Origin: an uncultured Bacteroidota bacterium
Lineage (GTDB): Bacteria > Bacteroidota > Bacteroidia > Flavobacteriales > Flavobacteriaceae
NCBI GenBank assembly: GCA_902598525.1
Contig: CACKBZ010000002.1
Location: 62,001-126,000, forward strand
DNA: 64,000 bases
Direction: 5' to 3'
Below are positions 25,604-29,881 of this stretch, piece by piece. Both the position numbers and the translations under genes were made by a program. Each line of letters starts with the position of its first letter. Position 1 is the stretch's first letter. Under the pieces are notes generated by a model. That model made no database searches and was not told the origin of the DNA. It saw only the letters and a program-made list of their open reading frames with translations.

Positions 25604-25948
25604 CTAAGATAATAGTTTTCCCTTATTTTTTTCCTTAAAGGCATCAAGAGTTTCCCTCTTATAAATGGGAGTTCTATTTCTTCTGGTAATCCATTTTAAC
25701 TTACCATTTAAGTGATATCTTGTTAAAGTGCTTTCGCTTATACCAATATATTTAGCAGCCTGTTTTCTAGGAAGATAATTTATATGCTCTGGAATTTTGG
25801 AAATATCATATGAAGAGGAGGAAATCTCAAGGTAACTTCTTTCAATTTCTACATCTTCTTTTTTGACTCTTCTACCATTAACATAAACAGATCTCACCCC
25901 GCTTGGGAAGTTATCAATTTGATCTTGTTCTATCCAACTTTTGTACAT
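25604..25948 (-). CDS. Helix-turn-helix (excisionase/MerR-like) DNA-binding protein
   Basis: LPRKQAAKYIGISESTLTRYHLNGKLKWITRRNRTPIYKRETLDAFKEKNKG is an HTH_17-like domain. Confidence 0.75.
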   Translation of the reverse strand: MYKSWIEQDQIDNFPSGVRSVYVNGRRVKKEDVEIERSYLEISSSSYDISKIPEHINYLPRKQAAKYIGISESTLTRYHLNGKLKWITRRNRTPIYKRETLDAFKEKNKGKLLS

Positions 25949-26257: not shown

Positions 26258-26749
26258 ATGAGAAAAATATTTGTTTTAACGTTATTTAATTTTTTATTAG
26301 TTAGTTGTAACTCAAATAAATCAATTAAAGAAGATTTATCTGATTTAGAATCGTTACAGACTAAATCCACATTTGTAGATTTATATGAAAATAATTTAGA
26401 TTTATCAGAATTTAAACAAGGTAAAATTGTAATTAGCTATTGGGCTACATGGTGTGCCCCATGTATAAAAGAAATGCCCAGTCTAAAAAGAGCTGAAAAA
26501 ATATTAAAGGAGTATGGGTACACTTTTTTATTAGTTTCTGATGAAACAATTTCAAAAATTTCTAGATTTAAAGAAGAAATGAATTTTGACTTCAATTTTT
26601 TGAAATCCAGCAAATCATTTGAAACACTTGGGATATATTCTATGCCCACATCTTACATTTTTGATGAAACAGGAAAAATAGTTGAAACTATTGTTGGTGC
26701 AATTGAATGGGATTCTGTAGAAATGATAAATAAACTAAAAATGCTCTAA
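26258..26749 (+). CDS. TlpA/ResA-like thioredoxin-fold lipoprotein
   Basis: LFNFLLVSC lipobox; GKIVISYWATWCAPCIKEMPSLKRAEKIL with a CxxC active site; MPTSYIFDETGKI. Confidence 0.9.
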   Translation: MRKIFVLTLFNFLLVSCNSNKSIKEDLSDLESLQTKSTFVDLYENNLDLSEFKQGKIVISYWATWCAPCIKEMPSLKRAEKILKEYGYTFLLVSDETISKISRFKEEMNFDFNFLKSSKSFETLGIYSMPTSYIFDETGKIVETIVGAIEWDSVEMINKLKML

Positions 26750-26750
26750 T

Positions 26751-27950
26751 ATGAAAAAGTGGACACCATACCTACTCTTATTATTTATTTTCTCTTGTTC
26801 ATCAAAAGATGTTGTAATAGAAGAAGTCTCTTTCTTATATGATAAAAGTAATGCTCAACCTAGTTTAGTTTCTAATAATGGTAACTTATCATTAACATGG
26901 ATTTCCAGTGATCAGGATATGAATGCAAATTTAAATTTTCGACAATTTATAGATGACAAATGGACTGATTCAAAAACATTTGCCAATGGTTCTGACTGGT
27001 TTGTTAATTGGGCAGATTTTCCAACTCATGCTATTAGTGGAGATCGAATTCTAACCAGCTACCTTAAAAAATCTGCTTCCGGCACATATACTTATGATGT
27101 TTTTTTAAACCTTCGGGATTTATCAGGAGATAAAATTAAGGAGGATTTTATATTAAATACAGACGGTTTCAAAGCTGAACATGGTTTTGTAAGTATAGTT
27201 GCTAAAGATAAAGCAGGATTTTTTGTTACTTGGTTAGACGGAAGAAATACTGTAGAAAAAAATTTAGAGGGAAACCCAAAGCCAATGACCATTAGATTTG
27301 CAGAAATTACAAATGCTGGGGATATAATAAATGAAACCGAACTAGATTCAAATGTTTGTGACTGTTGCCAAACGTCAATAACACATACTGATAAGGGCCC
27401 ATTAGTTGTCTATCGAGATAGAAGCGAGAAAGAAGTTAGAGATATATATATGACCCGAAATATAGATGATGTTTGGGAGGCTCCAACTCCAGTTCACAAC
27501 GACGGATGGGTAATATATGGGTGTCCAGTAAATGGTCCAAAGGTTGTCTCCTATGAAAACAATATAGCTGTAAGTTGGTTTACTGTTTCTGATGCAAAAC
27601 CAACTGTTAATCTTTCATTTTCTAGATTTTATGGAGCATCTTTTGATGAACCAATAAAAATAAATGATCATAATGCGATAGGAAGAGTTGATGTAGCTTT
27701 TTTAAATGAAAAAGAAGTGATAGTAAGTTATATGGAAGGTGACGATGATGGGACATATTTAAGAATAAAAAAAGTTTCCCTAGATGGGAAAGTTTCAGAG
27801 CCAATAACCATTTCAAGAATTGATGGTGGAAGAAGTACAGGAGTACCTCAACTAGAGATACTAAATGATGAAATATTTATTGTTTGGACTGTCTCTGAAG
27901 ATGAAATTAATCAATTAAAAACTGTAAAGCTTAGCTCTGCAAACATATAA
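26751..27950 (+). CDS. Lipoprotein, predicted beta-propeller (BNR/sialidase-like), with CDCC motif
   Basis: LLLFIFSC lipobox; repeated beta-blade-like segments; NVCDCCQTSITH (CDCC codons at 27357-27368) and VIYGCPVNGP. Confidence 0.72.
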   Translation: MKKWTPYLLLLFIFSCSSKDVVIEEVSFLYDKSNAQPSLVSNNGNLSLTWISSDQDMNANLNFRQFIDDKWTDSKTFANGSDWFVNWADFPTHAISGDRILTSYLKKSASGTYTYDVFLNLRDLSGDKIKEDFILNTDGFKAEHGFVSIVAKDKAGFFVTWLDGRNTVEKNLEGNPKPMTIRFAEITNAGDIINETELDSNVCDCCQTSITHTDKGPLVVYRDRSEKEVRDIYMTRNIDDVWEAPTPVHNDGWVIYGCPVNGPKVVSYENNIAVSWFTVSDAKPTVNLSFSRFYGASFDEPIKINDHNAIGRVDVAFLNEKEVIVSYMEGDDDGTYLRIKKVSLDGKVSEPITISRIDGGRSTGVPQLEILNDEIFIVWTVSEDEINQLKTVKLSSANI

Positions 27951-27953
27951 AAT

Positions 27954-28841
27954 TTGAAAAATTATCTCTTTTTAACACTACTGATAATAAATGGCTGTAC
28001 AGAGATTGAAAAAGATCAAAATTTTGATTCAGTAAAAATCATTGAGACAATTGTTTTACCAAAAATTATAAATGAAACATCTGGATTAGAAATTTTTAAT
28101 GATGTCTTTATCACTCATAATGATTCTGGAGGAGAGCCTAGTTTATATTTTTTTAATCTTAGTGGTGAGATCATAAATTCAATCAAAGTAGAGAAAGAAA
28201 ATTTCTGGGAAATTTATAACAATGACTGGGAGGATATAACAGCTGACGAAGATTATATATACATTGCGGACACAGGAAATAATTTCGGTACTAGAGACAA
28301 TCTAAATATCTTAAAACTAAAAATAAATGATTTTAGCATTGATGATAAAATTGATATTTTTTATTCTGATCAAAAGTCCTTTTTTCCTTCTTTTAAACAT
28401 AAATATGATGCAGAGGCCTTGTTGATCATTCAAGATAAAATAGCTCTGTTTTCAAAAGATAGAGACTCTTTATACACTGATCTTTATTTAATTGATGAAA
28501 AAGTAAAAGGGCAACAAGGCTTATCTAGTTTTGCAAAATATAATGTTAATACATTGATAACTGGTGGAGACTATGATAACGATACTGGTATTTTAGCTTT
28601 GGTAGGTTACTCGTCTAAAAGAAACTTTTTTTTAAATTTCCTTAGAGATGATCAATATTTAATCTTATTCAAAGATTTTAATATTAATAACCCAAGAAAT
28701 AACTCATTTAAAAAGTACAAAATACCAATTGAAAGAGCTCAAATAGAATCTATAAAAATTATAAACGAAAATATGTTTTGGGTAACTTCGGAAGATGAGG
28801 GAATTGGAAACCCATATATGTACAAAATAGAGCTAAATTAA
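27954..28841 (+). CDS. Lipoprotein of unknown function, predicted beta-propeller
   Basis: TTG start; MKNYLFLTLLIINGC lipobox; SGLEIFNDVFITHNDSGGEPSLYFFNLSGEI...NDWEDITADEDYIYIADTGNNFGTRDNLNI. Confidence 0.68.
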   Translation: MKNYLFLTLLIINGCTEIEKDQNFDSVKIIETIVLPKIINETSGLEIFNDVFITHNDSGGEPSLYFFNLSGEIINSIKVEKENFWEIYNNDWEDITADEDYIYIADTGNNFGTRDNLNILKLKINDFSIDDKIDIFYSDQKSFFPSFKHKYDAEALLIIQDKIALFSKDRDSLYTDLYLIDEKVKGQQGLSSFAKYNVNTLITGGDYDNDTGILALVGYSSKRNFFLNFLRDDQYLILFKDFNINNPRNNSFKKYKIPIERAQIESIKIINENMFWVTSEDEGIGNPYMYKIELN

Positions 28842-28844
28842 AAA

Positions 28845-28925
28845 AAACGCTCCTAACAAAACCAATTAACAAAAATTCAAAATTAACCTAGCTAAAAAAG
28901 GACTAAAAATGACCTAGGAGCGTTT
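28845..28925. other. Long-range perfect inverted repeat in a convergent intergenic region (possible RNA stem / bidirectional 3' end signal)
   Basis: aaacgctccta (28845-28855) and taggagcgttt (28915-28925) are exact reverse complements, 59-nt spacer. Confidence 0.7.
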
Positions 28926-28987: not shown

Positions 28988-29881
28988 TTAGTTAAGTATG
29001 TAGGTAATACTAATTTTTAAAAATGGATGTCTTTTTGTTCTCTGATTTTTAGTGTCTTTTGAAGTAGAATTATATGAGGTTAACACCTGTATATTGTTAA
29101 ATCTTTTTTTTAGGCCCACTGAAAAAATATCTCTAAAATCATTTGATTCCATTACTAATTCTGCTTTATCGTTTAACTGACTACCTTCAAGCTTAAAATC
29201 ATGTATAAAATACTCAAGCTTTGTTCCTATGAAAAAAGAAAACTCAGAATCAGTATTTAATATATAATTATCAGAGAATCCTAACCAAGATAAGTCACCA
29301 ATATATAGACCCATCTCTAATCCTGACATAATTTGATACGTCCCTAGTTTTGAATATAATTCTGATGTTAAATTAAGGTTGTCTTTAATTTTAAAACCCT
29401 TAAAATAACTAGCTAACAAATTAAACTGAAGTTCTTGCGGCATTTGTGATTCCCACTTAAGATTTGGTAGATTTAAAACTAGATCATGATATAAATTTTG
29501 CATACCCTTTGCCAAAGATGCATTTCCAGTAATACCAATTTGACCTCCAAGAGAATAACTAGAATGTGAAGACATTTTTTTTCTTTTTTGATATTCTAAA
29601 AATAAATACCCACTATATGGATAATCATATTTTTCAGGGTTAGACTCATATCTCATTGATGGAGTATAAATTAGTTGTCCAAGAGTAAGTCTATTGTGAT
29701 CTTCTACATTGTCTTTAACTGGTTTAAAATATGACAAAAAGATTCCACTTGAGTAATAAAAATCTCGATTAAAATAAAGATCATTATCAACATCCAAGTT
29801 TATTTGTTTTTGTGAATTGACTTTTGTTGTTATTAAAAAAAATAAAACAGATAGAAACGATAATAAAAGTTTTTTAGCCAA
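28988..29881 (-). CDS. LpxR-like lipid A 3'-O-deacylase / DUF2219 outer-membrane protein
   Basis: LDVDNDLYFNRDFYYSSGIFLSYF...LGQLIYTPS...YDYPYSGYLFLEYQ. Confidence 0.78.
   Translation of the reverse strand: MAKKLLLSFLSVLFFLITTKVNSQKQINLDVDNDLYFNRDFYYSSGIFLSYFKPVKDNVEDHNRLTLGQLIYTPSMRYESNPEKYDYPYSGYLFLEYQKRKKMSSHSSYSLGGQIGITGNASLAKGMQNLYHDLVLNLPNLKWESQMPQELQFNLLASYFKGFKIKDNLNLTSELYSKLGTYQIMSGLEMGLYIGDLSWLGFSDNYILNTDSEFSFFIGTKLEYFIHDFKLEGSQLNDKAELVMESNDFRDIFSVGLKKRFNNIQVLTSYNSTSKDTKNQRTKRHPFLKISITYILN

Follow-up and report, generated by a model that had tools for sequence, protein, structure and literature searches.

Organization of the locus

The window, i.e. the whole 64,000-nucleotide stretch of DNA analysed here, carries three genes on the + strand at 26258–28841, with intergenic gaps of 1 and 3 nt in the ORFs read from the sequence. 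Because they are closely spaced and share a strand, the three genes likely form an operon. The packing and coordinates agree exactly with an earlier sequence-only reading, as do the WCAPC site in gene 1 and the CDCC (27357–27368) and GCP motifs in gene 2. That reading had also assigned lipoboxes to all three products, and lipobox-like cysteines are indeed present at residues 17, 16, and 15, respectively, each invariant in its aligned family; the residues preceding this cysteine are unusual in two of the operon proteins, P0002 (IFSC) and P0003 (INGC). The features identified are as follows.

26258..26749, + strand: TlpA/ResA-like thioredoxin-fold lipoprotein, 163 aa (gene 1); PF08534/PF00578 matches, invariant C66, P68, C69, and P130
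26751..27950, + strand: predicted CxCC/GCP beta-propeller lipoprotein, 399 aa (gene 2); AlphaFold2 model, propeller matches in the PDB, >500 relatives
27177..27185, + strand: EHG motif, His144 of gene 2, possible extra ligand; invariant in close relatives, not in distant paralogues
27357..27368, + strand: CDCC motif, Cys203/205/206 of gene 2; invariant in 34 sequences, loop position by DSSP
27519..27527, + strand: GCP motif, residues 257–259 with Cys258 of gene 2; Cys258-Pro259 invariant in 34 sequences
27954..28841, + strand: second predicted propeller lipoprotein, 295 aa, TTG start (gene 3); predicted structure, linkage in the genus only
28848..28922, no strand: inverted repeat CGCTCCTA/TAGGAGCG, possible bidirectional terminator; read from the sequence

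The inverted repeat separates the operon from a convergent gene for an LpxR-like outer membrane protein (28988–29881, − strand; PF09982, 126 bits). A small protein encoded at 25604–25948 on the − strand matches a helix-turn-helix (HTH_17) domain below the Pfam threshold.

The product of gene 3 is a predicted beta-propeller, as proposed earlier, and structure prediction agrees. In almost every locus of the genus to which the window belongs, the gene comes after gene 2, but one genus member (G018) has its copy elsewhere, away from gene 2. No copy was found beside gene 2 in the other genera searched. A conserved three-gene system, as the sequence-only reading had it, was therefore rejected, since the relatives of gene 3 lie elsewhere in other genera and also in one genus member; gene 3, tied to the operon only in the window's genus, is most plausibly a local addition.

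The TlpA-like thioredoxin and its linkage to gene 2

Gene 1 encodes a protein with a redoxin fold (PF08534, E = 9.9e-16; PF00578, 2.1e-14; Pfam), in which the redox site WCAPC occupies residues 65–69 and a conserved proline, Pro130, is likely the cis-Pro. All the features expected of a thioredoxin, namely the fold, the WCxPC site, and the downstream conserved proline, are thus present, and C66, P68, C69, and P130 are invariant in 10 propeller-linked relatives. Because its scores fall below the NCBIfam cut-offs for both TlpA and ResA, the protein is, on its sequence, TlpA-like rather than TlpA itself.

The proposed co-occurrence of the CDCC protein with a TlpA-type gene was borne out in part. 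Among 77 parsed loci, a TlpA-family ORF is located immediately upstream of gene 2 on the same strand in 42, corresponding to 20 of 47 clusters when the loci are grouped at 65% identity, and no WCxPC ORF of 120–260 aa was present in 57 control windows of ~20 kb. The pairing is not universal, and among the 40 more distant loci that form a second set it is rare (four cases). An adjacent TlpA gene is missing from roughly half of the close relatives sampled and from the majority of the distant ones. Gene 2 thus does not universally need a reductase gene beside it.

Conservation, distribution, and predicted structure of the propeller protein

Apart from the lipidated residue, the gene 2 product contains exactly four cysteines (C203, C205, C206, and C258). 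All four are invariant in an alignment of 34 diverse relatives, some sharing only ~25% identity, which spans Bacteroidota, Zixibacteria, and Alphaproteobacteria and in which distant paralogues were included on purpose; conservation of these cysteines had been named earlier as a point to check, and it holds. The complete set of residues invariant in all 34 sequences comprises C203, C205, C206, R222, R230, W253, C258, P259, G262, and W276. The pattern, judged from sequence comparison, is not a matter of chance, as the CDCC and GCP cysteines do not vary and pairing with TlpA turns up again in many lineages.

Among 150 related genomes searched, 18 of the 24 that belong to the same genus as the window carry gene 2, as do several Flavobacteriaceae outside the genus. 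A scan of species genomes yielded at least 530 confirmed relatives, Zixibacteria among them, and 107 of 393 genomes sampled across the phylum contain a match, in some cases a distant one. Most plasmid-borne relatives come from the Roseobacter group, at ~33% identity, and a scan of viral contigs detected no relatives.

Neither gene 2 nor gene 3 has a significant Pfam or NCBIfam match, and searches of PDB sequences (single and profile) found no relative with a solved structure. The AlphaFold2 model of the gene 2 product (pLDDT 83.8, pTM 0.85) has a strand order that, by our own count, reads as approximately seven blades. Its top Foldseek matches are sialidases and other propellers, with NanA the best (E = 1.8e-10, TM ~0.5), so that at the level of the model the sialidase/BNR-like fold suggested previously is supported. 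Relatives are publicly annotated as ‘sialidase family protein’, and weak BNR_2 matches were obtained in 5 of 13 of them; the likeness to bacterial sialidases and BNR-repeat proteins (PF13088) lies in the predicted propeller fold and in weak sequence similarity. Activity as a sialidase or another glycosidase is, however, highly improbable: the FRIP motif with the catalytic arginine was found in 0 of 34 family members, and the window protein has no Asp box (0–4 in other members with a loose pattern). Unlike in sialidases, the invariant set consists of the cysteines, two arginines, two tryptophans, and a CP..G loop, and copper genes adjoin many relatives.

In the model, the CDCC loop connects the last strand of blade 3 (192–202) with the first strand of blade 4 (209–212; DSSP), and GCP is located in a predicted loop between blades 4 and 5, where model confidence is moderate (block mean, 69). 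Blade-to-blade loops of this type earlier in the ring carry EHG and DWFVNWAD, the EHG motif (His144) being in the one that joins predicted blades 2 and 3. Blade-to-blade loops of a propeller lie on one shared face. Because CxCC and GCP are in consecutive loops of this kind, they should share one face of the predicted propeller and point toward one pocket, so that the convergence which the sequence-only reading had named as a point to check is supported by loop topology rather than by measured distance.

Four cysteines would suffice for two disulfides, and thioredoxin partners often act on disulfides; the cysteines might thus form disulfides only, with the TlpA-like protein acting as an isomerase or reductase that repairs them and with no role for a metal. 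We consider this improbable, as two ordinary disulfides are hard to accommodate with the spacing of CxCC, and it would offer no explanation for the copper gene neighbourhoods described below.

Copper genes near relatives of gene 2

Plasmid copies of gene 2 relatives are located near copper genes in Roseovarius, Pseudosulfitobacter, Sulfitobacter, Phaeobacter, Roseivivax, and Roseobacter. The neighbours on these Roseobacter-group plasmids include genes for a multicopper oxidase, a copper-binding protein, azurin, cytochrome c, CopC, CopD, CusA, and a heavy-metal ATPase. On a Runella plasmid, a distant relative lies between a multicopper oxidase gene and an RND efflux set. In Cyclobacteriaceae and others, several loci with both TlpA and the propeller also contain CusA, CusB, CopA, and DUF3347 genes, and examples of the adjacent Bacteroidota genes pass curated models (copper ATPase, TIGR01511; CusA/CzcA, TIGR00914). 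A shorter second family member (CECCKP; L099:9867-10904, − strand) adjoins a CopA-TlpA-CDCC cluster on the same contig.

The Bacteroidota probes for CusA, CusB, CopA, and DUF3347 were derived from the family loci noticed first, so that the counts from the first set of 80 loci are partly circular; as independent evidence of copper linkage, the second set and the plasmids alone should be considered. The 40 loci of the second set were chosen for taxonomic spread and not by their neighbours (the list of neighbour clusters leaves out L161 and L178). Copper markers were present in 7 of these 40 loci and in none of 57 control windows (Fisher p = 0.0015), the latter being random places, unmatched in position, in some of the genomes of the second set. 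When a small protein with an HCxGKC motif was counted as a marker, the numbers were 11 of 40 and 0 of 57, respectively (p = 2e-5). Linkage to copper genes was thus found for relatives in several lineages and not for the window locus; most loci, including that in the window and nearly all of those in Flavobacteriaceae, have no nearby copper gene.

Because the four cysteines never change and relatives often lie in copper-resistance clusters, the gene 2 product probably serves in copper handling and not as an enzyme that cuts sugars. The earlier suggestion of a metal- or disulfide-dependent envelope system rather than a sialidase is accordingly narrowed: a metal/thiol role remains the best reading, with copper now indicated by gene context, and the dismissal of a sialidase stands as very likely correct given the lack of FRIP in 34 sequences.

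On the Roseobacter-group plasmids, the propeller gene follows cytochrome c and azurin genes, and by topology of the model the invariant Arg222, Arg230, and Trp253 would be in loops beside the cysteines. These observations are consistent with a redox enzyme, e.g. a Cu(I)/thiol oxidase passing electrons to cytochrome c or azurin. This also appears unlikely, since the cysteines were the sole cofactor motif found and the Bacteroidota loci have no noted cytochrome c neighbours.

In 25 streamlined genomes of the window's genus, no P-type (E1-E2) ATPase scored above the Pfam cut-off, and there was one sub-threshold match; as most of these genomes are 55–95% complete, failure to find it in any one of them says little, whereas its lack in all 25 is noteworthy. 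The genus keeps a CuA oxidase, and COX2 and SCO are each present in 23 of the 25 genomes. Its members depend on copper to respire and apparently lack the usual exporter. As SCO occurs in 23 of 25 genomes, we rejected the possibility that the operon stands in for it in this genus.

Proposed function and comparison with known systems

The reading that we favour, with reasonable though limited confidence, is that the gene 2 product is an envelope Cu(I)-thiolate propeller reduced by its TlpA-like partner, the pair buffering periplasmic copper or passing it on. On one propeller face, the lipoprotein would bind Cu(I) through Cys203, Cys205, and Cys206 (CxCC) together with Cys258 (GCP), and the gene 1 reductase would keep these cysteines reduced so that copper can bind. 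Copper would then be handed to Cus/CopA-type detoxification where such genes exist and, in the window's genus, possibly to assembly of the copper site of cytochrome oxidase. We infer copper as the ligand, the reductase–substrate relation, and the direction of copper flow. This proposal draws on gene context and on two precedents: CxCC binds a tetranuclear copper cluster in CopG (PMC7558416), and TlpA of Bradyrhizobium reduces the copper-site cysteines of ScoI and CoxB (PMC6696091).

As in CopG (DUF411), the gene 2 family combines a CxCC motif with an envelope location and the same copper gene clusters, and a DUF411 gene is present in the Roseovarius plasmid locus. CopG, however, has a thioredoxin-like fold with methionine ligands (PMC7558416), whereas the gene 2 family is a predicted propeller with a fourth invariant cysteine, and no DUF411 domain was matched in gene 2 (Pfam). 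The TlpA-ScoI-CoxB system of Bradyrhizobium is similar in that the gene for a TlpA-type thioredoxin is linked to that of a putative copper protein relying on cysteines, but here the proposed substrate is a propeller rather than Sco and both partners are lipoproteins.

In the open-access literature, we found no description of the gene 2 family as sialidase-family or propeller proteins in copper resistance, and a flavobacterial copper-genome paper makes no mention of sialidase or TlpA. To our knowledge, a propeller scaffold has not been described for a Cu(I)-thiolate site. More speculatively, and with less confidence than we place in the pair itself, the family may constitute undescribed, widespread envelope copper proteins with a Cu(I)-thiolate site (CxCC and CP) on propeller loops and a dedicated TlpA-like reductase, which would do much of the copper handling in marine flavobacteria that are streamlined and lack copper P-type ATPases. 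Under a misleading sialidase label, the family is present in hundreds of genomes and on many copper-resistance plasmids. If its members bind copper, they would represent a new protein scaffold for bacterial copper handling, account for the orphan TlpA-like partner, and provide a copper route for those streamlined marine flavobacteria whose genomes yielded no P-type ATPase.

Distant paralogues of the CQCC/CPCC/CECC-RT type directly follow a TonB-dependent receptor gene in six of six loci, often together with a small membrane protein bearing the HCxGKC motif. BtuG of Bacteroidota, a seven-bladed surface propeller, is paired with BtuB for vitamin B12 (PMC6143338), and the gene 2 product is likewise a predicted propeller lipoprotein, its likeness to BtuG being one of fold and, for the distant paralogues, of gene context. 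The protein might therefore capture copper or a copper complex and hand it to a TonB-dependent receptor. We regard this as rather unlikely, if slightly less so than a redox enzyme or a disulfide-only protein: unlike BtuG, the CDCC subfamily of the window is paired with TlpA and elsewhere lies among efflux and detoxification genes, and no receptor gene accompanies the operon in the window or in close relatives, only the distant paralogues having one. Moreover, a periplasmic reductase is better suited to a periplasmic substrate. In the distant-paralogue loci L155–L160 (e.g. L155:9244-13316), a CVNRNHPELHCEGKCFL-type small membrane protein, a TonB-dependent receptor, and a CxCC propeller form a recurrent cassette, which is possibly a metal-uptake unit.
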